The notes under the pieces were generated by a model. The model was not told where the DNA came from. It ran no database searches and worked only from the letters and a program-made list of their open reading frames with translations. The translations under genes were made by a program, and so were the position numbers. A stretch of 64,000 bases of DNA from Nautilus pompilius (lineage: Eukaryota > Mollusca > Cephalopoda > Nautilida > Nautilidae): NCBI GenBank assembly GCA_018389105.1, contig JACATO010001069.1, positions 124,001-188,000 of the forward strand, written 5' to 3'. Numbering within the stretch: position 1 is the first letter of the stretch; each line of letters opens with the position of its first letter. This document shows, one piece after another, positions 14,853 through 61,209 of this stretch.

Positions 14853-16359
14853 CACTGCCGGACAAAAGAGTTGGGACACTTGCTGTGAAAATGATATTTG
14901 AGTTCTCTTGTTTTTACATTTGCATACAGATAGCCATCCTATTGTCCATAAGTTATATTAAACATGCATTTACAATGTGTAAAACAATGAATGTCATATG
15001 TGTATCTATTGTCTGTAAAAGATATTTGAATTAGCAGAGTCAAATTTGTACCGCGTCAAAAGAGTTGGGACAGTGAAAAAAATCTGTGCATACATTTATT
15101 CCCCTCAATATATTCATTTTTAAAAGATCAAATGAATAGAATCACATCATCTAAGACCATTTAAGATCAATTTTGCACCGTGCCTGGCAAGACAACGTCG
15201 TCTGAAATCAGAGACTTGATAGTTGAGCACCACCAAGAAAATCTGACTTGTTGGGAGATAGCCGATCGAGTCAGTTGCCCGAAAAGCACTGTAAACCGCA
15301 TTCTGAAGCAGTACAAGGAGACCGGAAACACGAAACCAAAATGCGAATCGGAAGACCGCGAAAATGTGACAACAAATGGATCGACTCATTTGTCGCAAAT
15401 CCGGGGGCCAATCGTTTCCTGACATCGACTGCCATTCGAGCCTCCCTGAGTGGAGTGAATGTCTCCAGTTGCACTATTCAACGTCGTCTGTGCGAGGGGG
15501 AATCTTTTTGGACGAATCGCTCAGAAAAAGCCATTGATCAGCAACAAGAACAGGCGCATCCGCATAGCATGGGCTAAAGCGCACAAAATCTGGACCAAAG
15601 TTCAATGGGCTAGAATTCTCTTTTCCGACGAAACGATGAGCACGGCAGGACCAGGCCCTCTCAAGTTGATCAGGGCAGAGCTATCGCCCAGACCTACTGC
15701 AATTTAGTGAGGGATGTCGTCGTCGACTACATCGACGAGAACATGCCAGTTACCGCCATATTCCAGCACGACAATGCCCCGAACCACTCCGCCAGAGTCG
15801 TCACTTCCCTCAGCACCCAACTAGGAATGGATGTCATTCGCTGGCCGCCCCAAAGTCCGGATCCCAACTCAATAGAAAATGCCTGGAAGCAGCTGAAGGC
15901 CAAGCTGGCCAAACACAAGAATCTCAACCAAGACCAATTCTGGCAGGCCGTCGAGAAAAGCTGGCAGGAAATGGCCAATTCCGACTGCCTTCGTTTGGTC
16001 GAATCCATGCCCTGTCGTTGTCGAGAAGTGATCGAAAATCACGGATACGCCACCCACTACTAGTCAATTGATCATTTCCATGCATTTGTTCGATTGTAAT
16101 TTGGAATGTTGAAAAATATTTATGGTTTTGCTCACTGTCCCAACTCTTTTGTCCCGATACAAATCGGACGTTGCCGATTCAAATATTTTTTCCAGAGAAT
16201 ATGTAAACATATGGCATGTGTTGCTTTTATACATTGTGAAGGCATGTTTTGTGCATATAATAGACAATGTGATGGGTATTTAAATGCGTTTGTTAAAACG
16301 AAGGAGCTCAAATATCAATTTCACAGCAAGTGTCCCCCAAACTCTTTTGTCCGGCAGTG
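14853..16359 (+). mobile_element. Tc1-family DNA transposon, near full length, IR/DR ends
   Basis: The element is 1,507 bp, flanked by a TA duplication (14,851-14,852 and 16,360-16,361), and begins CACTGCCGGACAAAAGAG with the inverted match at its end. Each inverted repeat is about 230 bp and holds two direct repeats: outer (14,861-14,881; 16,330-16,352) and inner (15,053-15,074; 16,133-16,155), all around CAAAAGAGTTGGGACA. This is the IR/DR layout known from Sleeping Beauty-type Tc1 elements. One transposase gene lies between them. The only loss at the ends is small mismatches, so the copy looks fairly young. Confidence 0.93.
15180..16063 (+). pseudogene. Tc1 transposase, DD34E, inactivated
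   Basis: Order of parts: paired-type helix-turn-helix (TCWEIADRVSCPKSTVNRIL), AT-hook GRPRK, Tc1 middle region, first catalytic Asp in FSDET (about 15,627), second Asp in FQHDNAPNHSA (about 15,770), and the Glu in PDPNSIENAW 34 residues later, hence DD34E. The start codon is GTG at 15,180, probably a decayed ATG. Coding switches frame near 15,345 and 15,490, and after FSDET roughly 40 codons normally present between the first two catalytic residues are missing. The last 118 codons (15,710-16,063) are intact. It cannot make an active enzyme. Confidence 0.9.
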
Positions 16360-20289: not shown

Positions 20290-22440
20290 AGATGTTTGAA
20301 ATCTTTTATGAATATTCCATTTTTTAAAAGTGGTAGTCTTTGCTTTTGATAACATGCCATGTTAAGAATGAGATTTTGTCGCATATCATTCATGCGACGT
20401 CACTATTTTTCTATACTAGCTCGCCCAGAATGTGTTCCAGATTAAAAATACTAACTCAAAACTCTGCATTCTGGTGAGGTTAATCGTTTTTCTGTAGTGT
20501 GGTATTTTAAAAATATTCTGCTGGTGCCTATTTATAACAGTAAGTAAATAACGTTTCTTGACTCTCAAAATACCTGAATTCACACAATACTTTATAATTT
20601 GAAAACTATATTTCTTACCCGGCCCCTAGTGTTTAAAAGTTTAGACGAGGCTAATCTCTATGTCAAATGAACGTCAAATAAAACATTCATTGAACTACCT
20701 GATTTTTTTGGCTGTTTATCGAAAATTAAGTTTTATTGATAACAGATAGGTCTGTTAAGTAGCTTAACAATAGATAGCGCCTTTCTGCTTTCCATTGAAA
20801 GCCCTAACTTCTAATAATTAAGTCCTACAATAACTATAGATTACATAAATAAACGATGAATCTAATTTTTTAACTTAAAGCACTATGATAAGTTTAAAAA
20901 AGAAAAGTAATCGATGTATATTATACAGCGTCACCTGTTAGTGATGTGGAGATTATTATTAAAATGTATCTACAAATAATCAGGCTAACAATCTTATGAC
21001 TTCTAAAACAAGATTTTTAACGTTGCACAGACAAACTGATCAATAATGAAAGTCGATTGTCTGTAATCGCATTAAGCGTAATTTGTCTCACGATTAACTG
21101 CACAAACTTGTAAAATGACATTCGTTTCTCATGAACCATTAACTCGCTGATAATCGCTGTTCAATGGCTGAACAATATTCAAAGGAATCTGCCAACGAAA
21201 ACGCTGCCAAATTAAAAACAAAGGTCACTGATGGATGTTTTAATAAGCATTTTAATCCAATAATTTCATATTTCTACTTTTCTCCACTAGTTAACATGGC
21301 GACCAACGTAATTACTTGTTATTTCTCGCACAACTCAAAATGAGACTGTCAGCCATTTAAAAAAAAAAAACTGCTAATAGCACAATCGATTACATGAGAT
21401 AAATTATAGGGAGTGAAGCCGAGAAAAATATGCAAAATATATGAAAGAACAACATTTTATTTAGATTAATAGCAATAGCGGTAATATTTAATTGAATAGT
21501 TAAACCTTTAAATTATTGTAATGTTCAGTCGAATGACTTTGAAAGTGGGAAGGTTATGCAAAACAAGATTTGTTAAGGGAAATAACTTTGTGATAACTAA
21601 CATTTTAAAAATGTTATGTCCCTTACAAGTTTATTTGTTTGGCTATACCAACACAGCTACATTCGAAGTAAAGATTTCAGCTGTTCAAATATAGGATTTT
21701 ACAAATTGATGCAAAAAATATTAATTAGTAGCTGGCTGTCAAAATGTTTTTTTTATAAAAACAATTTGTGAAGATAATTATTAAAGAGAAACAGAAGATG
21801 AGTTATTCAAAAGTATACATTACTGTAAATTCCACGACATGTAATCATAATGTATATATTATTGTTATTTCTGTTGGTGTCGTTAAGTTAATGAGACAAT
21901 AATGCTTAAATGAAGTAATTATACTGCTTTAAAATTGTAACGTGCGATTTGCATGTGTAAGTTTAGTTTTTGATTAATAGTCAAAGGGAAATAACGTTTT
22001 CTTATTGTTAGAATTCGAAACCAGAATACGTTTTCCCAGTCCATTGAACACAAAACAAGGAAACTTTACGTTTTCCTGGCTCTTTATAAATATGTATACT
22101 ATATTCCCCAGTTTCCTCACTGCTGCAGTATGGTCTTGATAAAGTATAAACAGCTTGGATCTTCTAAGTATTCAACGACTGCTCTGATTTTACCTACGTG
22201 ATTTCTTTTCCCACAAGTATTTTTTCTGGAATTTTAAAGCTGAACTTCAGTCACTTGCTTGCGATGTGGACTCTTGTCTTGACTTTGAGGCTGAGGACGT
22301 CCGTGGTCGAGGTGCAAGTCAAACCGCGAAAACCTACCTCACTATATCTACTCAGTAAATTCCTTCTAGAAATCTTCAGTTTTCAGATGTTGAGGGAAAC
22401 TTAAGTGGCCAGCTGGGGAAGAAGAGTAAGAAAATAACAG
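20290..22440. other. AT-rich, nothing recognised
   Basis: A 2.1-kb stretch without supported coding sequence. Confidence 0.45.
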
Positions 22441-22689: not shown

Positions 22690-24660
22690 ATTTAAATTTA
22701 TCTTTACTAGAAACCAGCCTTTCGCGCTTCATTGGACAAACGTTTTTTATTATTTTCAAATAGAAATTATTGCAGGTCGACTCATTCGCTTCTCAAATAA
22801 TTTTTTATCAGCTTAAACTTTGAAAAAGTTCGTTCGGCACATGCAACTGTCACAGGAATTATCAAAGTTATCACAGTTAACATTTCTTGGAAGCTTCAAC
22901 ACATGGCGCTATTTTCACATATTAACAAGGTTACTAACTTAGAAAATGATGAAATGTTTTCAAATCCGATTTAAACAAACATTGTCGAAAGGACAGTAAC
23001 TGAGCAGGAAATTCTTTAGAAATAAATATCTTTCTTATCTTTGTTAGCTAAAGTTATGGCTCCATCGTACAATTCTTTATCGGTTGCAGCAAGCAAATAT
23101 TTTTGGAAAATAATACTAGAATTTTCAGCAACACGTCTTAGACCTTCGAACCTGTGATTTAGTTGAGCGAGCATCATGTCTAAACAACCGTAAAACACGG
23201 TGGTCTTAGACTTTTTTCTGGAACCGAAAGTTTTTCATCTTCACACAATTCACTTTAGTGTTTCTTTGCCTTTATATGCGGTTCTGCTGAAATCTGCTCT
23301 CCACGTCCCATTCCATCAGAATTTCTTCAGATGGTTCTTTTATTTACACGCAGTTGTCCCTGAGTTGCACTAAGAGTCAATTGAGTGCTTTAGTGATTCA
23401 ACTGCTGTGTCCCAACAACATATTTTTACTTTGCAGTGACTTAGAAATTACATTAGTTATTTCTAGCATTTTTATCTGATGATCGGTTAGAAATATAAAC
23501 TCAAACTGTTCTATTTGCTTCAACAGACCAGATGCTTCAACTCGCTCTTCATGTTTTTGAAGAGCCCTTCACAATTTCTGGATAAAGAAATCTTAATGCA
23601 GTTAGTGAATCATTCCTAGAGGACCACTGAGTCGGACATAATCTTTTGATTGTTACTTTCTCAATAACGTCTGACACAGAAGCCAGTTCTTTTAATATAG
23701 CCCACCATCTTATAGTATGAACAAAGAAATTATAAAGATGTTCGACAGCATCACAAAAGGTTTTTAATTTTTAATTTCAGAGGTATTTTGAACACAAACA
23801 TTGAGAGCAACATTTAGATTATGGGCAGCACAGTGAACATTTTCAGCATTTGGTTCTCTCTCAGCTGTTCTTGCTTGGACTCCCGAATATATACCATACC
23901 GCTCGTATTCGTTGCACCATTATACCCTTGATCACGACATTTATTCAAAGTTAATCCATTTTCTTCTATTGAATTAATATTTTAACTTTCTAATCCAATA
24001 GTATTTTGATCGGAAACCTGAGGAAATCCAATAAATGATTCCTTGATTTCTGAATCATGACTTAGTGTTTATTCTGCCATATCGAAAGATTTGACTCATT
24101 TGATTGACTTCTGAAATGTCTTGTGTTGTATCTGTAATTATTGAAAAAAAATGATGCTACTTTTATGTCATCGGTAGTTTTTCTTTTAATTTTGGCAATG
24201 GCCAATAGCATAACCACGTTCTAGGCAGCACCATCCCCGATTTCGATTTCTTAGAATAAAAGACTGCTGAAAAACATCGATCATTCTGGTAAACATCCCT
24301 GGGTAACCGCCCTTTGGGTTTACACGATCCCTTTGATTTTGAAATAGTTAAACGTTTTAGCACTGTTTTCGATATTTATAAGAAAGTGTCCTCGGTCAGA
24401 TGACAATACCGAGTCAATTTGTGGTACTTCATCTATTTCTTCATGAATTTCTTTATTTGTGTCTGATTCTGATTCTACTTCAAACACATTTACATCAGTT
24501 GCAGCACTTGATTTTTTGGCATAAGTAAATTTTAAACACTTACTTGAGCAACTGGCTTCTTCACCTTTATCTACATTATCATTATTCATTTAAAAAAAAC
24601 AATCCAGCTTCAGTAACTTAGAAATCGTTTTTTCTTCTTTCTTGTTGCTTTTCCTTTTTG
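22690..24660 (-). mobile_element. hAT transposase relic (ZMYM1-like, TTF-type finger)
   Basis: Minus-strand pieces appear in hAT order. An acidic N-terminus starts MNNDNVDKGEEASCSS (24,589). Then come GRLPRDVYQNDRCFSAVFYS (about 24,300), QGYNGATNTSGMV (about 23,930), HTIRWWAILKELA (about 23,710), CPTQWSSRNDSLTALRFLYP (about 23,640-23,580), FYGCLDMMLAQLNHRFEGL (about 23,198) and the C-terminal dimerisation motif VTVACAERTFSKFKLIKNYL (about 22,850-22,790). Several stops and frame changes separate them. This is the DUF4371/ZMYM1-like hAT branch, distinct from the hAT relic at 18.6 kb and in the opposite orientation. No certain terminal inverted repeat was seen. Confidence 0.82.
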
Positions 24661-30536: not shown

Positions 30537-30542
30537 TTTATT
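30537..30542 (-). terminator. Poly(A) signal AATAAA, TnC
   Basis: The first clear AATAAA on the minus strand after the variant b stop, about 90 bases downstream of it. Cleavage would fall around 30,510-30,525, next to a TA-rich run. It could serve both last-exon variants. Confidence 0.5.
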
Positions 30543-30630
30543 CTTTCAGATATTTTCACACGCTCTTCTTTGTCCAAATATTTCAGCAGCGCCACCTTAG
30601 GTGCTAAGAGGCGACAACTGCAGTGTTAAC

Positions 30631-30656
30631 TCACCCCATCATCAGATTTGAGAACT
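30631..30656 (-). CDS. TnC: TnC last coding exon, variant b (tail EFSNLMMG)
   Basis: Minus strand: strong acceptor TTCTTTTCTTCTGTTATTTACAG, then AG completing Glu142, then FSNLMMG and TGA (30,633-30,631). It lies 387 bases downstream of variant a, is in the same phase and encodes a clearly related but different tail (FxNLM shared). This looks like a tandem exon duplication used as an alternative last exon. If exon a is spliced in, this segment would be 3' UTR. Confidence 0.78.
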
Positions 30657-33600
30657 CTGTAAATAACAGAAGAAAAGAATTATAAGCAGAGAAAGCAACG
30701 AAAAAACAAGCGAGAATAAATAAATAGTGCATGCAAGGTGTTATATGCAAGAGCAAGCGAGGAAAGTCTGGAGCATGACAACGTAAAACAGTGGTTAGTG
30801 CATTGAGGATGCGTAAAAAAGGAATATATATAATAAATACAAGACAGTGATAACTGATGAAGATGGTGATGATGGAATGATGATGCTTTGAAGTCCCCAT
30901 CTCAGATGAAGATGGGGTGCACAAAGTGTTATGGACATTGTAGGAGTCCCTGGGTCAAGATGAAGTCTTTACTGCCCGGCTGGTACCCTAATGGAGATCG
31001 GAGTAGCGCGTGCGATTGTGGCATACACAACAGGAACCCAGTGTCACTCGGACGTCATCAGATTTTTGAATTCTGCAAAAAGATAAAAGTCAGGTATTTT
31101 TTGTTCATACTAGACGATCGCTATGAAACCAGAGGCCCACCTCCATCTTGACATTTTTTGATTTACAACTGAACGTGGAAGTCTGCTCTTTTCTTTGCTC
31201 AGTCAGCGTCTATCGAAGACAGAAACTCAACATCTCTGTGAAAGGAAAACTGTAGCGAAAACGGCCGCTATCTATAACTCAAGCTTCCCGGAGCTACACA
31301 AATTGAGTCGAAACGTCACTGAAGCGAAACTGCGGCTTTCTTATCTGTCTCTAACCGCCATTTTTAGCCAAATAAAAGAAGAGAAACCTCGCTCGCTATA
31401 ATTGATGACACTAACAGGAAGAAACTGCTCAAAAGTACGATAAGTAGAAATTGAGAATTTATCTGAACATAACGAAAAAACCATAAATTTTACGCTTGAA
31501 ACTCGTTCATTGGTTGGGATTGTATTATTATATTATTATTATTAGTAATTATTGGATTATTATATTATTAATTAGTATTATTATATAATTTTTCTTTAAA
31601 TATATAATTTTAAAATGAAAATCTTTGGCTCAACTTATAATAATTTTTCTTTAAAAGTACAAAAGAATGTACTATATTTTTTATTTTATTGCTAACAGTT
31701 TTGATTAGCCATGAAGCTTTGATATTGGAAGACTGCATAATTATTTCTTATTTTAACTGCGGAAAATAATTACGCAAGCGACCCAGGCATGTTGCAATAT
31801 AGGTATATGTATACGTCATCTCTCTCTCTCTATAATTTCTGTAATTTTTTTATCTTTACTCACAGAAAAACAAAATATTCATGCATGCATCAATCATATT
31901 TTAATACTCTTTTATCTTATTTATCCATTTCTTTTCTCTTCAGTTTTTTGAATAAGACTTTCCTAACATATTTCTTAGCGACATTTACACATCACAATTT
32001 TCCCCAGCTTCCAATCAAATAGCCGCCCTTTTCATGCAGTTCAAAATCGGTTTTTTTTTTTTTTTTTTTTTTTTTTTGTAACGAGGATCTTCAATTTTTC
32101 TATTGCGTCAATTTTTTGTTGCATTTTTACTCGGAATCTTGTAATTCAACTCCGAAAGATTTGTTCCCTCTTTACAAATCGAAAAGAGGAGCAGCGGAAA
32201 GACCCTATACGCGAACGATTCCACTCTGGTTTTCATATCAGCTTTTCTTTTGTTCCAGTATTTTTTTTTAATATATTCTGATAATATATTTTTGGACTCT
32301 CTCCCAACCCTCCCTTGTGAAACTGTAACGACCTGAAATCGTTGAACGTCACCGCCATTTACCATCTTTCTGTGCCGCAGTCGCGTTATCATTCCCTTCT
32401 GCTTTCAAGATAACTGTAGTAAAACCGAAGCAAATGCGGAAGCTCAGATAATGACGAGATTGAAAGTTCAACCATTAGCCTCTGTGTGGAGTGCGAGCCG
32501 GTTGCTTTTGTGGTGCCGCATGTGTAATGATATACATCTCAATTGTCTCATATTAAAAAAACCAGAATGCAATAACGAGTAATAGATCTTGCATATTTTT
32601 TTTTAAATAGAATTGTTTATGCAAATTTAGGAGATTGTTATTATGTGCGACCTTTTCCAGATTGTTGTTGTTTTTAATGAAAATACTGCTGCTCCATTGA
32701 AGAATAACGTTTTGCGCTAGATATAATATATCGTTCTCTACAGGGGAGAAAAGTCTGCATAGTTGCTCTAACCGATTTGGTACGGAGTCAGAAAAGGGCT
32801 ACAAAAGGATATCGCAGTATGCGGAAGCGTCAGAAAGGCATTTGATTTACTTGGAAAAAGAAAAGGATTTATTTCAGATAGGAAAAATATGGCAGAGGAA
32901 AGAATCAGAAGCTGCCAGGGATATGAGGCAACTTTTACTGGAGAGAATGATGCACAGACGTGTTATAGCCAGAGAATTAGCCGATAGCGTGAGCAGCTGA
33001 GATTATAGTTGCATCTCCAGATCGCTCTGTCAAGATACTTGAAAAACCATGCTTCAGATGTAAACATTTGCTGCCAAAACTTATTAATACTCTCGGCCAA
33101 TAAGAAACTTGATTCTACAAAAGAGTATAAATCGATGGAAACAGACTAAGGTCAGATGTTGCAACCTGTAGGATCAAAGTCTGAGTTATTCAATAAGGAC
33201 AGCAAAAGTGAAGATTATTGGTACAAAAACGACGTTTATTATGCCACCAGAGAAGCCGAAAAATGTCAAGGAAGTTGAAGATTTTAAGAAAATAAATGGC
33301 AGCATAGAGGTAGGAGTGTACCACATCAATCTGAGTAAAAAATTATGGTAAACAAATAAACAGTAACCTTTTGATCACATGAAACGACTTTGGGCTCCTA
33401 AAGCCAATGATGGAGCTTCCACGAGTTTAGGTAAGTAACGCTGGGGGAGGTATGGGGAGTAAGCGAGGCAAAACTTACTAAAATCTCCCTGAACAGCTTC
33501 TATGATAACTTGAAACAAAAGTTCATTGAACTGTTTTCTGATAATTTCTGTAAATATACAGGCACAACGCATGACAAATGTTTCAACGTAATCGAGAAAA

Positions 33601-36600: not shown

Positions 36601-39600
36601 ACCCGAAAGCCGGCTAGTAGTTGATTTTGGGTGTGGAGAATTTTCTAATCAGGGGAATCCTGCCACTGATAATTAATAGCTTTTCTCGTTAAATAAAACA
36701 AAATTCTTTTATTTTTGTGTTTATATCTATCAAGAACGTGTGCTATAGATACTGGCTTGTATGTACAAGAATTTGCTTCTATTTTATCACATGCTAAATT
36801 AATTAGACGTCATAATTAAGACTCTGATGTTCGCTTTAGGCGTTATTACATTAGATAAAAATCTATACTTTTGAATTGACAAAAACAAAACAAACATTTA
36901 TACATATGTAGCCATTAGTTTACAGAGGTGAGGTTTTGTATATGATTCCTTGCCTTTTGTTATTTTGTTTCTTCCTATTCTTTTAAATCTTCCTTCGTTA
37001 TTCCGGAAAGCGGAAATGTCAATCCACAGATAATGAAAGAAAACGTTCTCGCGATGCCACGCTGCGGAAGCTGACAGCTCATGAATAGCCACTGAAAAGC
37101 CGGTCAGAGATAATGGCGTAGACGCACACATTACAACTTGGATGATGTTTGCACTTTAAAAGCAGAAGAAAAAAAGACCGCGCCTACGTTTATTTCGGGG
37201 TAGATTAGAACTGCATGGTTAAAGACTTTAACCAATTTCAAGACAATACGCCTGAAAAATAGAATAATTTCACGATTATGTATTAAAATTACACAGAATA
37301 AATATTGGAAGTTTGTAGTGATCCAATTTAGAATGAGAAAAGCCAGCACAACGGGGAAACGAAAACCGTGGTTCGGAAAGGGTAGTAGACTTTAACAGCG
37401 ATGGCCCTTCCCTCCTTTGCTTTTTTTTTTTTTTTAATTATGCCTTTTCTCAGCTTGTGACATCACAGAAGAAAGGTACAAGTGTTGGCGACTTAGCAAA
37501 CGTCATTATATTTTCACTTTATTGAAATGAACGCACAGAGAAACGTACTATTGTTTAAATTACTCGAGTTATTTCACCATTAAAACAAAATACTATTAAT
37601 AATTTAAAAAATGGCTGCAGGTATTAAATATTTTAAATATTCAATAAAAAACTAAAAACGTACAAAATAAAAAAGTGAAAAGGTTGACTGTACATCGCAG
37701 AAATTGTAGCCACGATAATAACTTTACATATCTGTTATAATTTAAGTTTCTACTTTTCTTTTGACGACCGTTCTTCTGTAACAAAACAGAACAAAGTTAA
37801 ATAAATCAAATTAAGCAAATAATCTAAAAAGATATGAATAATGAACCAAACTTTTATGTGAGAAACGAAGCATAATTCGGTGCAGTATGCAGGTGTTGCT
37901 TGTTCTATTGGCCTTTTAAAGGTAAAGATACGGTTACATTTTTTAATCCTTTGGTGTAATTATTACAGTAACCCTAAGGTCTAAAGATGTGGTAAATGTA
38001 GCCCAGCACGTCAGTTGAAAATCAGGTTAACATCGACGGATGCCGCCGATAAAAGTATGCGGAAACTAATCTAAAGTCAGTCGAGCATTTTAAGGAAACA
38101 AATAGTAAACTACAAATAAATGTGTAAGAAATAATTTATGAAAACACTCGGATACTAACCGGAAATTCCAGTTGGCAAAGTTCAATGTTTTTTCGCTAAT
38201 CTGAACCTTTGCTTTTCTACCTATGATACACCGCGACATAAGCTAACCACCACCATATCTTTCATTCATTTTAACCAAAATTATATCGATTCAGCAATAA
38301 ATCATTTTCACGGATGAGTGAAACTGACTGATCTTGATTGTGTTGCTCGCACTCTCATACAGGCCTGGTGCGTTTGGCTCATTTTGATTGCGCATGCCCA
38401 TGGGGTAGGCTTTGAAAAAAATAGAGTATAACGTCACGATCTGTACACGAACCCGCGTGTCTAGGACTGCCAATGTATACAAGTATGGAGCAGTGACATT
38501 ACACGAAAGGCCAGGGATAGCAGATAATTGGAATGGAAAATTCCGGGCTTCTCTCAGAGTCTTCAGAAGGCAATTTTACACATACCACCCCGTTTTCAGT
38601 CATTCTGCTGCCGAACTTTGTGCTCACAACTACACTGTAATTGGCACTACAAGAAGCGGAGTGTGATGATGGCGGCTTAGCACTGTAAGTCTGATCATCT
38701 TACTGTTATGTCTGAAACTATAACAAGTAAACTGAAATTATTATCGAGCCTTTCGTTGTTCTTCGGCTTTGACAAGTATCCGCTGGCTACTAAACCACTA
38801 AACCAGCATTTATGGACGACAACGATACACCTCACCGGTGGCTTTCCCTTCATGGTACGCCTGAATTGATCCCAAAGAAACTCTAACTGGTTTAAATCCG
38901 GTATTTTAGCAGGCTAAACAAGGGACACTGCGCTGGAAATATTGTACCATTTCAGTATAAAATTTATTTTCGATTATTCTGCAGGAAATTTGTTTACTGG
39001 AAATCTGGTGGTGCTTAACTTAAATTCAGGTGCAAATAATGGTGTTAATTAACGATCTTCTGTCTTCTTTAAATGCATACCACAGAGGAATGACCACCAG
39101 GTATAATTGACTAAGCATTTCTATAGAAAGCAGGCGTGAACAATTCTTATGACTGATCTCAAAAACACATATTATGACGTAAGAACGTAACTGGACAACC
39201 CTAGAAAACTGGCAGCAGCTTTGGTGTTCAGTAGATCTATCAGCTTTACCTTCGTAGTCAACAGTGCCGCTACCGTCGGTGTCTGTTTCTTGGATCATGG
39301 CGTCGATTTCGTCCTCCGACAGGTCGTCACCCAAACTTTTCAGTATCCACCTGAGGTCGTCCACGTCGATAGTTCCTCGGTTTCCCTTATCCAGCACCCT
39401 GAAAGCATCTCTAAGCTCACGTTCATCTTCGTCTTCTCGAAGCTTTTTTTCAAAGATTATCTTGAAATTTTCATAAGTAAAAAATCCGGTTGCTTTAAAC
39501 AGAAATAAATAAATAAATTAATAATCATAGTACAATTTTGTGGTTAACAAAGCGATTCATTTCGTAGCATATCCTTTATATGAAGTACTCACTGCCCCAT

Positions 39601-42600
39601 AGTTAGCAGTCAGCTGTCTGGCTAGCCAATAAGATACAGTTGTATTCCTTTCGTCATTAAGTTACCATCTAATTATGCTATTCAAAATGCCCCATAGATA
39701 AGAATATTTTCATCACGTCACAGACTTTCAAATCTAATTGGTTTAGCTTAGCTTCGTTTTCTTTGAGTGATACTGAAGCGGCTATGATGTCAATGCAAGT
39801 CTTTTCTGTACTTTTATGCTTTAGGTAATGGATATTAGAGAGAATGCATTTTAAGACCATAAATCTTTTGTTATTATTTAGGAGAAAAAGCAAAGTACAC
39901 CAGGAGATTAGAGTTTAAAATGATAGCCTAGCACAAACAGACTTCAAACGCGCGTTTCTATTACATCACCCCTTTGTTTGAGGGACTAAAAAGATATCGT
40001 GTAACTGTTGACATTATTAATGTTTTATCTCATTCACCGGTCTCTAATGGGAAGACAAACAACCCTTGCTAGGGGGCATAGTGCCGCAGAGAGCATTATC
40101 CTGTTCCACGAGGGGCCCAACACGACTGGCGTTGGTAGGAAAATCCCCACTAGAACTCTTATTCTTAGATGCGGGAGGAAAGCCACGCTTCTTGTTGGTG
40201 AAGGAGAGCAAGAGGAAAACAGTCCAGGTTGGTCGGCGAACTGGGGCCTTTGACCGTGGTAGTGCAGTGGGTTAACGACTGAGCCACCGGCCGTCCGCCC
40301 GCGGCAAGTGTTTGAGAAAGATCAGGCGTCAGAGATATAGGCGCTACCCAACTTTTCGACTGTTCCAAAGCGACGACTGTAAACAGAAAACCACTTACCA
40401 TCTTCATCAATGTCGTCGGCCCAACGCTTCAGTTTATCGTTATCCACATGCAAGGCTAGACTTTTAAAGATGTTGTTCAGCTCCTTCGTCGATACGTTGC
40501 CGTTCCCCTTCTTGTCAAAGAGATGAAATGCTTGCTGGGCGTCTGTAAACAACAACAAAAAGAAAAGTAACAGCTATCCTTAATGTCAAATCTTTATTTC
40601 TTGTGCATGGTTGTTTTGATAATTTTAAATAATTTTGTTAAATAAAAAATATTTTCTAAGTTATGTTCACATATCTCCCTTACATTAAAAATTGAAAAAT
40701 TCTGCATTGTGACGTAGTTACTAAACATGTTTCTTTAAAGCAGAAAAGCCACGTTTAAAAATAATCAGTGTACACATTAGGAAATATCAGACAGCTGTTT
40801 TATATCTAAACATGAATTACTAAGGAAAATATATTCTAACCGTGGCGTCTTACTAAGAATGGTTTTATTCTTCAACAGTATACTAATTTACAAAGTATTG
40901 TGTTCTATATTAAACGCTTAACGTATCTAAGCAACCCATCGGCACGATCTTGACATCGCTTACTTACATCTTTAGAGGAAACCGGCGCTAGTTGTTACAG
41001 CTCCAGTAATTCCTAATTAAACGTTTATAGGAAGCTACAATGGACGTCTCATGCTTTTGTCTGCGATTGACGTCGATTATAGCTTCATGTATACGCTTCA
41101 TTAAGAATCGCTAGTAAAATAACTATCCTCGGCCTTCCCAAGATAACATCTATTGTTTAGCATGTATAACTGACGTTTAAATCATCTCTCTAGATTTTTT
41201 GTTTGTACACCTATTTTGTAGATAACAATGGACAACAATGGTTTTCCCACCTGAACACTATCATGCTTACTTTGTAGTATTTCGCACGCTGATTTCAAAT
41301 CTAAAAACCATTTTGTTCTAGGACGTCACGTTTTTTTAGTTATGGCAATTGACTGATGAATGGAGGTTATTCGTAGACTCTAGCAAACTAAGCCTTAAAG
41401 CTGTGCTGTTACATCATGGTAACCAAAAACTTTCGGTTCCTATAGCTCATGCAGTTGGCTTCAAAGAGACATACGAGTCGATGGAACTCCTTTTGAAAGT
41501 GACGAGTTATTCGGTTCATAAATGGAAAATTTGTGGTGATCTCAAAGTTATTTCTCTCCTCGGATTGCAGCTAGGGTACACAAAACATTTGTTTCCTATG
41601 TCTTTGGAACAGCCGTGATGATGCCAACTATTACACTCGAAAAGACTGGCCTATGCGACAGGAACCTATAGTTGGCAGGTACAATGTGCAACATATGCCA
41701 TTGGTAGATCCTCAGAATGTCTACCATCTGCCACTTCATATCAAATTCGGTCTTATGAAAAAAGTTGTCAAAGCCATGGATAAAGACGGTGATGGCTTTA
41801 TGTACATAAGAGAGAAGTTTGGTGCTGACAAAAGTGAAGCTAAACTCAAAGAAAGAATTTTTGTGGGGCCCGAAATTCGAGAACTCATGCGTGATGACGG
41901 GTTCAAAAAATAAGCTGAACCCACTGGAATCTGCAGCATGGGAAGCATTTATTTTAGTTGTACAGAACTTCCTTGGCAAATATAGAGATCACTATGCTGA
42001 GTATGTGAAAAACATGGTAATGGCGTATCATCGAATGGTGGCCAGCGCATCTTGAATTTTTCCAACCAATCTAGGGGTTGTCAGTGATGAGCATGGTGAA
42101 AGGTTTCACCAAGATATAAAGATGATGCAAAGTAGATATCAGGGCAAATTCAAACCCAACATGATGGGTGATTACTGTCGGTTTTTCCAAACGGAGACTG
42201 ATATCCCACATAAGCGCAAGAACAAGTGTCGGAAACATTTGTGAACATTTGGAATGTACCTACTATGTAAGTTAAATGCGTTCCATATCTTCCATACTGC
42301 TTTTATCAGTCTTCCTTGTGCATCTGTTGTCTGATCATGGCAAATATGTTTCACAGTAAACATTTGAATACGAAATATTGTTGTTCAAGCTTTATATAGT
42401 TCATATAACATAAGTCATGATATAGCCTTAGTGGTGAAATTCCTTTTTATGTATATCTCAAAAACCTGACGTCCCAGCCAAATTCTGACTTTAAATTTGA
42501 AATCGGCACCCGAAATTTAGCTGAGACCACCCACATTTCGCTCGGTGGCAGACAAAAAGTTTCATTTTGCTGACCAGGGTCATGGGGTTACACGTTACAT

Positions 42601-48600: not shown

Positions 48601-50652
48601 CACAATTTCACTTTGTTTTTGTTTTGTTTTTTTAATTCTGGTTATTGCATTTAATATGACGCTGAGCAGAGCAGTTTATCAAGGGCAGGTAATCGCAACC
48701 TGGCGTGAAGATTGAGCACGTAACTGAACAGCTGAAAGAAAAGTGTTGGGAGGGGAGATAAGCGAGAGCGTGAGAGATAGAGAGAGAGAAGAGTGTGTGT
48801 GTGTGTGTGTTGGAAGCATGGCTAGGAAAACGTATTTTATAGCGAAGGTTGGCTTTTCTGCAAAACTCTACTATAGCAGAGAGAAATTCCAAGACGTATT
48901 TACTTTAGCTAAGTCTTTTCGTCCATCTGTGACCCTGAGACGCGCGCACATGATAAGAGTTCTCTTGAATCGTTGGAGGGGGATATATTATACGTTCTAC
49001 CCCCCCCCCCCGGGGGGGCACACACAGACCTCCATGGAGACAGGTTCAGGTCGTCAGTATCTCGTGTATTCTTTCAGGCACTAAAATTAGGTCTGCACTC
49101 AGACCTTTCCCTATATGGTATCCGCCGCACACAACACGACTAGTGATGTCAGAGTCTCACTCCCTGCGCTAGGACATTTGACATTTCTTGCGTTCTCTCT
49201 CCCACTCTCCCCTCACAGTATGTCGCCGGCGGTCGGGCCACATGATGCCTCCTCCTATTACATCCTTTTGCGTAATGTATGTTGAGTTTGTTTTTGTTTT
49301 TTTTAAATTATACTATTATTTATGGATCATAGAGGTGGTCACTCTATCAAATAAATTATTATTAATATTATTATTTTATCCGTTAGAATGATGGAAACTA
49401 GATATTAAAGAATAAAATACGCACAGATGAAAATATTAAAATGATTTACGTGCTTTCTTAAACTATTCTATGAAGTTGAGCAACACGTGAGAACAAGCAA
49501 AATAATTGCGGATTCCGATGTAGGTTTGTTGTTCTCCCTGCTGCTGGTCTTTTCTCCCTTTTTTTACCGGTTTCTTCATGCCGACGTAATCGGTGATTTT
49601 TTTTTTTTTTCGCGTGTACTACGCCTATCCCACATATTCGCTGTCCACCGCCCCTAAATCGGCCCAGTCAAAACCCTGACCAACATTTTCCAGCTCAGAA
49701 AGTATCCGACCGGGTTCTAGGTTCGCTACGGCCATCGGCAGCCGTCACTCAGCCTCATTCGCGGAAATTACACCGTCGTCCTGAACACCTGCTGACACTC
49801 CGCTGGTAGTGCTGTATCTGGTGGACGACAGCTTGCAGCGAAAGGGTTAAAGCGCCGGGGGGGGGGCAACGCCTCGAGTAAACAAACCCTGTGCCTGCCC
49901 TGCCGCGTGACTTTCTGTCGGCACGTCCACGATTCCTGCCGATGTTTATATTCTGAGAGGCTGCGTAACCGCTGCATTTGAAGGACAGAACCTCAGTAAA
50001 ATAAGGACAGTATTGTCTAGTTTTTTTTTCTTTTTTATCTACGAGGAAAGTAAATAAGGTGTGTACCTATGTCCGTGTCGGACAGACACCTCACTTCACC
50101 TACGAGTCTAGAATAGAAGAAACTAAGTTGGCGCCTTTCAACAGTTCCGTGGATAGTTTTGTGAGAAGGGCAAACAAATGTTTCCTTACCTTGGTATTGT
50201 TTCTCGGTAATTCTGAAGTTGGACTGAAAGAAACAAGAAAATGAACTAATATAAATAAATGAAGGAATTCTTCTCTGATGAATGCAGTTTAAAATCTCCA
50301 GTATAAGGCGGGGGGTTAGGGACAACAACTATAAACGAGTTTTACTATCATCACTTTACCCAGCTCTACGGTAAAATTAAACTGATGGCGGACCACGCCC
50401 TTAAGGCAGGGCCGTTTATGAGCAGGTTACACCTAACTGTTAATTGGGTAATTTAGTAGCAAGAGAGCTGGACCAGTTGTTACCTACCATTTTTTTGCTC
50501 GGATGCTGGCTGGCTGGCTGGCTGGTAGTAGTTCACTCGAAACAGAACAGCTCACGATAGTCCGCGAATTCTACGCCGATGTTCGTTCGACACAATGCCT
50601 CCGTCTGCGCATGTAACCCACATGGAACCCGATACCCTGCTTCCTATTTATA
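30631..50652 (-). CDS. TnC: Troponin C, molluscan type (whole gene, 5 coding exons plus alternative last exon)
   Basis: Thin-filament calcium sensor that binds troponin I and T in muscle. The exons give a 150-residue protein starting MSNFRITEKQYQDAQQAF, or 149 residues with the other last exon. EF-hand loops: I, residues 22-33 (Lys at position 3, non-canonical); II, 58-69 (Asn at position 12, non-canonical); III, 95-106 (Gly and Arg at positions 3 and 5, non-canonical); IV, 131-142 (DTDGSGTVDYEE, fully canonical). Known family fact: molluscan TnC binds a single calcium at site IV, which this pattern matches. Length also fits. The linker KLREDEDERELRDAFRVLD separates the two lobes. Introns: phase 0 after the ATG, then phase 1, 1 and 1, the first as in calmodulin genes. 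Introns 2 and 4 are about 9.6 and 8.2 kb and full of transposon relics. A calmodulin-like protein is the alternative, but three dead sites argue for TnC. Confidence 0.9.
30895..30917 (-). other. Hairpin in TnC 3' UTR (variant a)
   Basis: CCCCATCT and AGATGGGG flank a 7-base loop, giving a perfect 8-bp stem. It lies between the two alternative last exons, about 130 bases past the variant a stop. A role in 3'-end choice is only a guess. Confidence 0.4.
31044..31072 (-). CDS. TnC: TnC last coding exon, variant a (tail EFKNLMTSE)
   Basis: Minus strand: acceptor CTTTTATCTTTTTGCAG, then AA completing Glu142, then FKNLMTSE and a TGA stop (31,046-31,044). Phase 1 matches the donor of exon 4, 8.2 kb upstream. 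The exon restores the aromatic residue after the EF loop and the short amphipathic end typical of TnC. No canonical AATAAA lies between this stop and variant b; an AGTAAA variant is near 30,970, or the transcript may run on to the signal at 30,542. Confidence 0.85.
31505..31590. repeat. ATT/TTA-rich simple repeat
   Basis: Imperfect (ATT)n inside TnC intron 4. Confidence 0.6.
32050..32078. repeat. T homopolymer of about 29 bases
   Basis: Inside TnC intron 4. It could be the poly(A) tail of a minus-strand retroposon, but no retroposon body was recognised beside it. Confidence 0.7.
32100..38750. other. TnC intron 4, non-coding
   Basis: A protein-like but unassigned plus-strand stretch lies around 32,750-33,290 (for example SELFNKDSKSEDYWYKND). 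Otherwise AT-rich with no recognised element. Confidence 0.35.
38775..38965 (-). mobile_element. Tc1/mariner transposase fragment, in TnC intron 4
   Basis: Minus strand: NISSAVSLV, stop, PAKIPDLNQLEFLWDQFRRTMKG. This matches the Tc1 block WPAKSPDLNPIEHLWDxL, including the catalytic Glu (here in LEFLWD). Only this block of about 60 codons is recognisable. Confidence 0.7.
39250..39492 (-). CDS. TnC: TnC exon 4 (EF-hands II to IV, residues 61-141)
   Basis: Minus strand: acceptor TTTCTGTTTAAAG, 243 coding bases, donor GTAAAG. It completes loop II, carries the charged interlobe linker, loop III (DKGNRGTIDVDD) and nearly all of loop IV. The exon stops after Glu141 and the first G of codon 142, so loop IV's position-12 glutamate comes from the next exon. 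Reading past the donor gives an unrelated tail, which supports the splice call. Confidence 0.9.
40060..40305 (-). repeat. tRNA-derived SINE, family A copy, in TnC intron 3
   Basis: On the minus strand the head has box A GGTGGCTCAGTCGTTAAC and a weak box B AGTTCGCCGACC. The tail has TTTCCTCCCGCATCTAAGAA and TAGTGGGGATTTTCCTACC, shared with the other family A copies. It makes up about a quarter of the 906-bp intron. Confidence 0.6.
40399..40542 (-). CDS. TnC: TnC exon 3 (EF-hand I and start of II, residues 13-60)
   Basis: Minus strand: acceptor in a pyrimidine-rich tract ending TTGTTTACAG, 144 coding bases, donor GTAAGT. The exon begins with the last two bases of Asp13 and ends with the first base of codon 61. 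It encodes the first EF-hand, with loop DKKGNGNVSTKE, and the entering helix of the second (DKLKRWADDIDED). Lys at loop position 3 removes a normal calcium ligand. Confidence 0.9.
41340..42245 (+). pseudogene. Relic of a widespread invertebrate repeat-associated protein, in TnC intron 2
   Basis: Plus-strand frames read DEWRLFVDSSKLSLKAVLLH, LICGDLKV-like ICGDLKVISLL, LPLHIKFGLMKKVVKAMDK, KERIFVGPEIRELM, NPLESAAWEAF and EHGERFHQDIKMM with MMGDYC. I recognise this ordered set of motifs from multi-copy uncharacterised proteins in many invertebrate genomes, usually treated as transposon-derived, but I cannot name the element class. The opening segment recalls an RNase H fold. The copy is broken in a few places. 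It lies opposite to TnC and has no part in its mRNA. Confidence 0.6.
42600..43385 (-). mobile_element. Tc1/mariner transposase relic, in TnC intron 2
   Basis: Minus strand, N to C: SRNPGLGNGTVHNII (helix-turn-helix, about 43,330), a linker with YHRPRQP, RYLHKVGYSGRVGRRKPLL (about 43,160-43,105), DLFSDEC (first catalytic Asp, about 43,020), GGFHVMMWAAVWDDTKTG (about 42,980-42,925), a decayed QDN region near 42,830, and a C-terminal block ending near 42,600. Multiple frame changes and stops. It covers most of a transposase but no terminal repeats were found. Confidence 0.75.
44774..44787. repeat. C14 homopolymer
   Basis: Within TnC intron 2. Confidence 0.8.
49000..49018. repeat. C12-G7 abrupt homopolymer junction
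   Basis: A run of about twelve C directly followed by seven G, a small perfect palindrome prone to slippage or hairpin formation. Confidence 0.75.
50190..50223 (-). CDS. TnC: TnC exon 2 (34 bp micro-exon, residues 2-12)
   Basis: Minus strand: acceptor TTTCTTTCAG, then 34 bases encoding SNFRITEKQYQ plus one base, then the donor GTAAGG. It starts in phase 0 after the ATG exon and leaves phase 1, exactly what exon 3 needs. Calmodulin genes have a similar exon of about 31 bp at the same place (their residues ADQLTEEQIA); here the TEKQ stretch occupies the position of TEEQ. Intron 1 is 264 bp. Confidence 0.85.
50488..50620 (-). CDS. TnC: TnC exon 1: 5' UTR and initiator ATG only
   Basis: On the minus strand this exon ends with GCAAAAAAATG directly followed by the donor GTAGGT (GT at 50,487-50,486). 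Only the start codon is coding (50,490-50,488); the intron then follows in phase 0. Calmodulin-family genes commonly carry an intron right after the ATG. The upstream limit is set by the TATA box and is approximate. The UTR holds a short CCAG tetranucleotide run (about 50,503-50,525) and two out-of-context ATGs near its 5' end (50,623 and 50,612), one of which may lie outside the transcript. Confidence 0.75.
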
Positions 50653-56969: not shown

Positions 56970-59190
56970 TAAATGTGTATGGACCGATGCTTCTTTAGCT
57001 TCAAAATGTTCCGAGAAAGATTAATGCTGAAAAGTGATCATTCTAATTTATCTGACTGATTTTTATTTTTTTTTTTCTAAGGAAACGTGCCATTTATAGG
57101 CTAAGGGAAATAACTCAGCACATTATTTGTGACTAACCGACATGCGAAAATTATGGTTGATTTTGATGAATTCTGCAATATCTCATGGCTGTCGCTGATG
57201 CGTGATAGTGTATTTGTTTTACACATTTTTTTTCTTAATCTATACTTATGCTGTATTCTGGAAATGTTATTCAATAAGAATAAATTTCAGTAAAAGTCTT
57301 GCTTGCTTGTAGACGCTACAAAAACAGTTTATAGCTTTCAAATCTGTATATATTTTAAAAAGTAACAAAACAATTATAAAGTTCGAAGTTTCTCACAAAC
57401 AAACAACGGAAGTGGGTGACTTTCTAAAACGCTTGGTCACGTTCGCTCATCTGCGCAGGTAGAAGATGCTTTTTCATTAGCCTCGTAAGTTTTACTGGCA
57501 AAACAAACAAACAAAAATAAAAACATGGGCTAATCGCATTTTTTTTTTGTGTGTGTGTGTCTAAACACGTCATAATTTCCTCTCGCTCGACTGTCTACTA
57601 ACGATAGAGAGAGAGTAAAAAAAAATCAAAAGGTGGGGTGTAATTTAACTTGACTGGTTTCTGAAGTTCGCAAGGGCTGTTAACTGCCTCGATCTTCGAG
57701 GCTGGAGTGCCGGAAAAGGAGGTAACTTCCTGTCTCATTTACAAAATGATGTTATGCCGCTTCCTGATCAACATTCAGTTTAGAGGAAAACACCTGTTTG
57801 AATTCATCTAAATTCGTGGGATCTAAAAGGCTGCCAATCAACACGTTTCCTTAAAGTGGAAAAGAAATTTAAAACATTAGTCCAACGAGTGCAAAGAGTT
57901 TGTTTGTTTGTTTTGTTAATTTTGAACCCCCGCAGCTTCGCCAGCTATCAGGTTTTAAAATTAATTGTCTATAAAATCACATTAGACCCTTTTTTGAGGC
58001 AGCTTGCCATGTAATATAAAATGGCGCAATGGGAAAAGATTAGTACAGATTTGCACACTTAAGTACATGCTTTTTAGAAGCAGAAGAAAAGCAAAATAAC
58101 TGTTGACAAAAATATAAATAAGTTAAATCCAGGCTTTAAATCAGACAATATTCCAAATGAAATAAATAAAAAATTTAAGCAGGAAAATCGTATTAGCGGG
58201 GTTATTTCATCCTACCTGTTTGTTGCTGAATTGTGGGACACAACTCCCAACGTGCCAACTTGATGTTGCTTTCATCCCCTAATTTCGTGCTTCTCTCGGC
58301 GCCAGGGTTATTATAAATGGGTTTCAGAGTTGAACGTGTAATTAGCGACTTTCTGATCCATCTGTTTTACATTTATGTTGTGCGAATTATCATTTTTTAT
58401 TAATTTACTGTCTCTCATATTTAATGTCATGTATATATCATGCAAATATAGCTTTTACTATTTTATGTCGGTTATTGAGGATGAAGTAAAGATGAACTTT
58501 ATCGAACGTATGACTAAAAGTAAGCCTCATTTATTGAATGCCCGTGCATATCATGTAGGTTTGTGTAAATTCAGAACCCGGGCGATAAACAGCAATCTAC
58601 AGAGGTTATGCAAAATTCAGTGGTTCCACCACCGCCCTGCACAACACTTAGACTCGAATAGCGGAGCCACCACTTAACCTACTGGCAGGAGCAGATGCTG
58701 CTAGCGTCCGACGGCCCGACCTATACACGGGCATCGATGATGTTAGTTAAAAGAGTCGCCTACAGTAGATCTAACGGAAACAGCCTCATAGTACCTGCTA
58801 CTCTACAAAATGGATTGTTGCTTTTCGAAAGTACAGTACAAAATATCCGCAATAAACTACCCTTTTCTTTGAGGATATAAATATAAAGATTTCTAGTTTT
58901 AAACAAGATTAAAATTACCCACCTTTACGTTGTGTCTGGGGAGGGGGAGATTCTGTATTTGTGTACATCAGTTATTTTCTCTTCTTAGCTGATATGTTTG
59001 GGGTACATTGGAAAAAAGCTTATTTTTAGTTATTTTTAACGCGTTGCACTAAAAAATTACGATACATTTAGATGATATTAAATAAGAAAGAAAGTAAATA
59101 GCATTTAAATACCGCACGAAGTCTGTTTTTTGGTTCTTTAAACCAGCAAATAACCCTGGAGAATATGGACAAGAATGTCTAGCGTGAAAC
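56970..59190. other. Non-coding, nothing firmly recognised
   Basis: A GT run lies near 57,549-57,560 and a GA run at 57,606-57,615. A 100-codon frame at 58,375-58,677 has no family resemblance. Confidence 0.4.
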
Positions 59191-59196
59191 TTCGTT

Positions 59197-61209
59197 TGGT
59201 ACGACTGGCACTGCACGGTACAACACGGCACGGTATGGTACGGTACAACACGGCACGGTATGGCACAGTACAACACGGCACGGTATGGCACAGTACAACA
59301 CGGCACGGTATGGCACAGTACAACACGGCACGGTATGGTACGGTACAACACGGCACGGTATGGCACAGTACAACACGGCACGGTATGGTACGGTACAACA
59401 CGGCACGGTAATGATACGGTACAACACGGCACGGTATGGCACAGTACAACACGGCACGGTATGGTACGGTACAACACGGCACGGTATGGCACGGTACAAC
59501 ACGGCACGGTACGGCACTGTACAACACGGCACGGTATGGTACGGCACTGTACAACACACGGCACGGTATGATACGGGTACAACACGGCACGGTATGGCAC
59601 GGTACAACACGGCACGGTATGGTACGGTACAACACGGCACGGTATGGCACAGTACAACACGGCACGGTATGGCACGGTACAACACGGCACGGTATGGTAC
59701 GGTACAACACGGCACGGTATGGTACGGTACAACACGGCACGGTATGGCACAGTACAACACGGCACGGTATGGCACGGTACAACACGGCACGGTATGGTAC
59801 GGTACAACACGGCACGGTATGGCACAGTACAACACGGCACGGTATGGCACGGTACAACACGGCACGGTACGGCACTGTACAACACGGCACGGTATGGTAC
59901 GACGGCACTGTACAACACGGCACGGTATGATACGGTACAACACGGCACGGTATGGCACGGTACAACACGGCACGGTATGGTACGGTACAACACGGCACGG
60001 TATGGCACAGTACAACACGGCACGGTATGGCACGGTACAACCGGCACGGTATGGCACGGTACAACACGGCACGGTACGGCACTGTACAACACGGCACGGT
60101 ATGGCACAGTACAACACGGCACGGTATGGCACGGTACAACACGGCACGGTATGGCACGGTACAACACGGCACGGTATGGCACAGTACAACACGGCACGGT
60201 ATGGTACGGTACAACACGGCACGGTATGATACGGTACAACACGGCACGGTATGGCACAGTACAACACGGCACGGTATGGTACGGTACAACACGGCACGGT
60301 ATGGCACGGTACAACACGGCACGGTACGGCACTGTACAACACGGCACGGTATGGTACGGCACTGTACAACACGGCACGGTATGATACGGTACAACACGGC
60401 ACGGTATGGCACGGTACAACACGGCACGGTATGGTACGGTACAACACGGCACGGTATGGCACAGTACAACACGGCACGGTATGGCACGGTACAACACGGC
60501 ACGGTATGGTACGGTACACCGGCACGGTATGGTACGGTACAACACGGCACGGTATGGCACAGTACAACACGGCACGGTATGGCACGGTACAACACGGCAC
60601 GGTATGGTACGGTACAACACGGCACGGTATGGCACTGTACAACACGGCACGGTATGGCACGGTACAACACGGCACGGTACGGCACTGTACAACACGGCAC
60701 GGTATGGTACGGCACTGTACAACACGGCACGGTATGATACGGTACAACACGCACGGCACGGTATGCACGGTACAACACGGCACGGTATGGTACGGTACAA
60801 CACGGCACGGTATGGCACAGTACAACACGGCACGGTATGGCACGGTACAACACGGCACGGTATGGCACGGTACAACACGGCACGGTACGGCACTGTACAA
60901 CACGGCACGGTATGGCACAGTACAACACGGCACGGTATGGCACGGTACAACACGGCACGGTATGGCACGGTACAACACGGCACGGTACGGCACTGTACAA
61001 CACGGCACGGTATGATACGGTACAACACGGCACGGTATGGCACAGTACAACACGGCACGGTATGGTACGGTACAACACGGCACGGTATGGCACAGTACAA
61101 CACGGCACGGTATGGCACGGTACAACACGGCACGGTATGGCACGGTACAACACGGCACGGTATGATACGGTACAACACGGCACGGTATGGCACGGCACGG
61201 TGCAGTATA
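59197..61209. repeat. 25-bp minisatellite array, about 80 copies
   Basis: The unit is TACAACACGG CACGGTATGG CACGG (25 bp), which divides into CACGGTATGG, CACGGTACAA and CACGG. Copies differ mainly at a few sites (GGTA/GGCA/GATA and CGGTAC/CAGTAC/CTGTAC). The unit has no stop in any frame and 25 is not divisible by three, so each frame cycles through all phases as a 25-residue peptide repeat; the long open frames on both strands are therefore not genes. Variant order shows a higher-order period (see findings). A few 1-2 base indels break the register. Confidence 0.97.

Follow-up and report, generated by a model that had tools for sequence, protein, structure and literature searches.

The window analysed here is a stretch of 64,000 nucleotides whose minus strand carries a gene that appears to encode troponin C, reconstructed as four exons followed by a choice of two terminal coding segments, A and B. 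Exon 3 (40399-40542, minus strand, 144 nt) encodes a degenerate calcium site I and the start of site II; it was matched by tblastn with a calmodulin-like query at 4.7e-9, and by the approximate splice-site matrices used throughout (acceptor and donor) its acceptor ranks 13 of 3466 and its donor 10 of 3898. Exon 4 (39250-39492, minus strand, 243 nt; tblastn 1.2e-21, donor rank 67 of 3898) encodes the end of site II, a degenerate site III and site IV as far as the first base of Glu142, and it is undivided over that length, so that this gene lacks an intron, the fourth, that calmodulin and troponin C genes have in vertebrates. A strong acceptor-donor pair delimits exon 2 (50190-50223, minus strand, 34 nt), which was found in a scan for such pairs 9-300 nt apart that returned six on the minus strand and none on the plus strand; it encodes SNFRITEKQYQ and the first base of Asp13 and reads in phase into exon 3 (DAQQAFHLFDKKGNG). 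An earlier scan for an exon preceding exon 3, in which a Met was required, gave nothing credible. The probable start codon is placed more tentatively at 50488-50490 (minus strand), where the end of exon 1 would read AAAAAAATG/GTAGGT. This is the best of 10 ATG/GT sites upstream of exon 2, with a donor score of 3.99 against 1.97 for the runner-up, and no site upstream of exon 2 offers an ATG with one to five further codons before a donor scoring above 3.5.

With a start Met, exons 2-4 and a tail give proteins of 150 (A) or 149 (B) residues, in which the EF-hand loops begin at residues 22, 58, 95 and 131, and Glu142 closes loop IV (131-142), a number that holds if exon 1 supplies the start Met alone, as we infer. 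Aligned with calmodulin, the joined protein covers a span of the same length (residues 5-149 on 4-148). Pfam EF-hand_7 matches exon 4 joined to tail A and scores the two full proteins at 92.0 and 90.7 bits, and two NCBIfam matches of the protein lie far under their cut-off and reflect just the EF-hands.

Four EF-hand units within about 150 residues, recognised by Pfam as EF-hand pairs, are what is expected of troponin C, and the C-lobe (with tail A) is identical at 50 of 65 residues (77%) to PDB 3TZ1, a 'Troponin C' that we take to be that of the Akazara scallop. Judged by residues only, loops I (DKKGNGNVSTKE), II (DEDATGFFTYEN) and III (DKGNRGTIDVDD) are off the canonical pattern and loop IV (DTDGSGTVDYEE) is canonical; on these loop residues alone, the protein is predicted to bind calcium at a single site. 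Site IV is also the single calcium-binding domain of scallop troponin C. The existence of a single such domain in the scallop protein is stated in a published account (PMC12040844). PDB searches with sequences from the window returned calmodulins or calmodulin fusions only, among the 60 matches listed of 500, 398 and 187, and it took a scallop query to retrieve 3TZ1, a chain of 74 residues. Calmodulins presumably outrank it because their two lobes sum above what a 74-residue fragment can reach. The evidence supports a troponin C, probably of scallop type, and a molluscan origin of the gene is likely, in line with the troponin C identity proposed in an earlier sequence-only reading of this DNA.

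Other features of the window lie outside these exons. A 25-bp tandem repeat of about 78 copies (unit GCACGGTACAACACGGCACGGTATG, 90% matches) occupies 59213-61195; each of its strands has several frames free of stops, which yields long spurious open reading frames there. Pieces of a Tc1/mariner-like transposase are spread over two plus-strand open reading frames at 15227-16060 (PF13358 DDE_3, 1.3e-9; PF01498, 0.032, which is under its cut-off). On the strand opposite the gene and just upstream of exon 3, an open reading frame at 41575-41910 (plus strand) contains the EF-hand-like DKDGDGFMYIRE. The stretch concerned (41755-41859, plus strand) was considered as a second troponin C and set aside, its open reading frame having no Pfam match; the frame resembles a transposable-element fragment, and its calcium-loop look is probably due to chance. 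Rfam at gathering threshold and a tRNA scan found nothing in the window.

Direct reading of the minus strand places the two tail segments where the sequence-only reading had put them. Segment A (tttttgcag/AATTCAAAAATCTGATGACGTCCGAGTGA) starts at 31072 and ends at 31044, its 29 nt of coding sequence reading (G)AA TTC AAA AAT CTG ATG ACG TCC GAG TGA, or EFKNLMTSE and a stop. Segment B runs from 30656 to 30631 (ttatttacag/AGTTCTCAAATCTGATGATGGGGTGA), its 26 nt reading (G)AG TTC TCA AAT CTG ATG ATG GGG TGA, or EFSNLMMG and a stop. The coding segments are separated by 387 bases (31043 to 30657), and the distance from acceptor to acceptor is 416. Both face the same upstream donor, CGAAG/GTAAAG after 39250, and both have the same phase, the last G of exon 4 being followed by AA in A or AG in B to complete the split codon for Glu, position 12 of loop IV. 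The claims that the tails share a phase and that both keep Glu142 and site IV are borne out in this way, the residue number under the proviso for exon 1 given above. The acceptors had been called strong, with reason: among the 3466 minus-strand AGs that of A ranks 28 and that of B ranks 6. Acceptor strength alone is not diagnostic, since the acceptor of exon 4 ranks merely 279 of 3466 and 12 AGs, A and B included, score above 4.5 in 39240-30560. An acceptor and a stop in a shared frame, as in an alternative last exon, are present in both A and B. The statement that both tails end in a stop holds insofar as each has an in-frame TGA; for B it is not certain, the TGA (30633-30631) coinciding with a strong 5' splice site.

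The two segments align over 25 nt, from TTTRCAG to CTGATGA, with 21 identical positions (84%), and the likeness is limited to these 25 bases, 18 of them exonic and 15 of those 18 identical. The exon and acceptor of A score 30 against those of B, compared with a base-shuffle mean of 12.7, and none of 500 shuffles was as good. The flanks behave differently: the upstream flanks (150 bases) score 14 against a shuffle mean of 15.2, a score that 418 of 500 shuffles equal or exceed, and the downstream flanks (100 bases) score 11 against 13.2, equalled or exceeded by 473 of 500. An unconstrained copy should decay like its flanks, which the exons have not done, and the pair is therefore likely to be an old tandem exon duplication of which both copies were kept; the duplication suggested in the sequence-only reading is accepted at that strength. 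Of the two, A is probably the ancestral form, having both the tail length of calmodulin (the alignment stops one residue short of both ends) and the closer likeness to the tail of 3TZ1. With the template and acceptor cut-offs given below, neither strand of the window showed a third copy of the tail. As for duplicates of exon 4, tblastn with a calmodulin-like sequence and exon 4 as queries gave, among the matches listed, none below E 0.068 besides exons 3 and 4 themselves, and no relatives of exon 4 were found by tblastn in viral_contigs or genome_contigs (38 and 167 pattern matches), neither of which is an animal collection.

How readily such a pair could arise by chance was measured with a template, EFKCLM, taken from the tail of 3TZ1. 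Among 172 phase-compatible AGs with a tail of 6-16 residues in 39249-29000, A (score 22) and B (17) rank first and second, and the third scores 10. When an acceptor cut-off was added, the whole window contained just two matches, A and B, both on the minus strand; in 2000 dinucleotide shuffles of 39249-29000 there were four single matches and no shuffle with two, at cut-offs (template at least 17, acceptor at least 5.7) that were chosen after seeing the data so that both real copies pass. This test supersedes an earlier one of 300 shuffles, in which B alone passed the cut-off. Without the acceptor cut-off the template is far less selective: matches of at least 17 with a short tail occur 0.28 times per shuffle, some plus-strand AGs equal or outscore the two segments (25 at 40521, EFKCLM; 29 at 2945, EFVQMM), and with the template EFLTMM an AG on the minus strand, at 22885, draws level at 16. 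Similarly, when 46 bases of DNA around A serve as the query, the score at B is 30, yet an unrelated site near 57200 (minus strand) scores 29. Neither the template score alone nor DNA likeness alone decides whether A and B are related.

Downstream of the tails, an AATAAA at 30537-30542 (minus strand) is the sole AATAAA or ATTAAA from 31200 to 29880 and is probably common to A and B. It begins 89 bases past the stop of B and is followed by a TG-rich stretch, although the minus strand has one AATAAA in every 627 bases, which makes its placement weak evidence. All donors between A and B score 1 or less, so that A is unlikely to be spliced on to B. The interval also has no AATAAA, and the simplest layout is therefore a single terminal exon in which the two acceptors compete and the poly(A) signal at 30542 serves both. 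In this respect the tandem alternative last exons of the earlier reading need revision: the two tails, each with an acceptor and in the same phase, stand, and separate poly(A) sites are probably not involved, as the canonical signal comes only after B. A TGCATG, the RBFOX motif, lies at 30730-30735 (minus strand), 79 bases upstream of B; the window has 19 copies of this motif on its minus strand and 13 on its plus strand, and the last intron has six, so that it is a lead only.

Our preferred explanation, which we hold with slightly better than even confidence, is that the last exon of a scallop-type troponin C gene was duplicated and is spliced alternatively to A or B within one shared terminal exon. 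An ancient last coding exon, encoding the last-helix tail of EF-hand IV, would have been duplicated in tandem, and the donor of exon 4 (39250) would be joined either to the acceptor of A (31072) or, with A skipped, to that of B (30656). Either join would keep the phase and restore Glu142 at the end of the sole canonical calcium loop, so that calcium binding at site IV is predicted to be kept in both forms. The tails differ in having Lys (A) or Ser (B) two residues past Glu142 and in ending MTSE or MMG, and swapping them would be likely to change how the last helix packs and how it meets troponin I or T. Transcripts with A would most simply run through B to the poly(A) signal at 30542, the choice resting between competing 3' splice sites. 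The sequence, the phase, the site scores, the relatedness of the segments and the divergence of their flanks are observed; the use of both acceptors, the shared poly(A) site, the functional difference between the tails and any tissue rule are putative, and the muscle or stage specificity proposed for the tails is possible.

The stop of B, by itself, is no proof of a terminal exon, since any phase-2 GTGAGT donor reads ...G TGA, and it is such a donor-like GTGAGT that overlaps it (GGG/GTGAGT, 30629-30634, minus strand). B could thus be an internal exon of 22 nt (30656-30635) that is spliced onward, the true tail being EFSNLMMG plus more residues. The rank of this donor, 8 of 3898 GTs against 67 for the donor of exon 4, argues for such an arrangement, as does the presence of B, together with the inferred exons 2 and 3, among the six minus-strand acceptor-donor pairs (three others complete the six, and the plus strand has none); about 1.4 pairs per strand are nevertheless expected from the site counts, and the support from exon 2 is partly circular, that exon having been found by the same scan. 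Against it, none of the 16 acceptors above 4.5 in 30560-60 leads in phase to a recognisable troponin C end. The strongest of them, at 22412 (8.81), was considered as the next exon of B and would give GWPLKFPSTSEN, which is not convincing. With a strong donor 75 nt on, the segment 22412-22338 (minus strand) looks like an exon that would belong to some other gene or, more remotely, supply troponin C with a third tail. The ...LMMG end, moreover, falls within one residue of that of A and has the AATAAA close behind it. We consider B likelier to be terminal than internal, and an internal B unlikely, though it is the foremost of the rival readings. A composite exon B, in which the donor is either ignored, giving ...LMMG, or used, giving a 22-nt microexon and, through splicing to an exon farther downstream, a third tail of greater length, seems to us quite unlikely; if true, it would provide three tails, with two competing acceptors and a contest between donor and poly(A) signal as controls.

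The remaining alternatives concern the same pair of segments. A and B could be two true alternative last exons with poly(A) sites of their own, A ending at a non-canonical signal such as the AGTAAA at 30968-30973 (minus strand), which begins 71 bases past the stop of A. Of 11 hexamers scanned between A and B, this variant alone is present, a possible private signal of A although variant poly(A) hexamers are rarer than the canonical one; the lack of a canonical signal between the segments speaks against this reading, which comes next in order among the unlikely ones. Lower in our estimation, and unlikely too, is that a single tail is used and the other is a relic of the duplication. The shortness of the exon would allow this, but acceptor, phase and frame are intact in both copies while the flanks are at chance level, and neither copy is relic-like, since the acceptor of B outscores that of A and the tail of A is the nearer to 3TZ1. 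Finally, one of the two could be a chance look-alike with no homology to the other, a reading that draws on the frequency of template-only matches, the high plus-strand scores and the near-equal DNA match near 57200. We regard it as very improbable, given the scarcity of joint template and acceptor matches in the shuffles and the identities, with and without the acceptor, in the right place, strand and phase. Of all these readings, we retain that of a duplicated last exon with two acceptors in one shared terminal exon.

If both tails are made, one gene would yield two calcium sensors, alike in their calcium-binding loop and unlike at the end of the last helix, which would offer a clean natural test of the role of the C-terminal tail of troponin C and would place troponin C among the contractile genes for which splicing is a source of diversity in molluscs. 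Beyond the residues it shares with the C-lobe, scallop 3TZ1 also has the site IV DTDGSGTVDYEEF found here, a site III off the canonical pattern and a similar tail, EFKCLMMSSDA; it differs in showing one tail, two residues longer than A. The scallop troponin C gene was reportedly the subject of a paper by Yuasa and Takagi in 2000. The equal-span match to calmodulin extends to gene structure, since in vertebrate calmodulin genes, too, the final intron interrupts this Glu codon and the exons measure 144 and 107+136 = 243, whereas calmodulin has four working calcium loops and here just IV is canonical. C-terminal isoforms of insect myosin alkali light chain and isoforms of ascidian troponin C are also known.

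In the oyster Crassostrea gigas, a troponin C isoform X2 of 150 amino acids (XP_011429059.1) is listed in one report (PMC8310146); its length equals that of isoform A, and its name suggests that more than one isoform has been annotated. No report of alternative last exons in mollusc troponin C was found in the literature searched, whose coverage was incomplete, and one may have been published. Isoforms that arise through splicing are described for ascidian troponin I (PMC6589888) and scallop myosin heavy chain (PMC5963113). The present arrangement could plausibly be a modest further case of this known kind of protein diversity, with no new type of mechanism: it would resemble those systems in deriving tissue isoforms from one contractile-protein gene by alternative splicing, and differ from them in the genes and exons concerned, the piece swapped here being the last 8-9 codons of troponin C.
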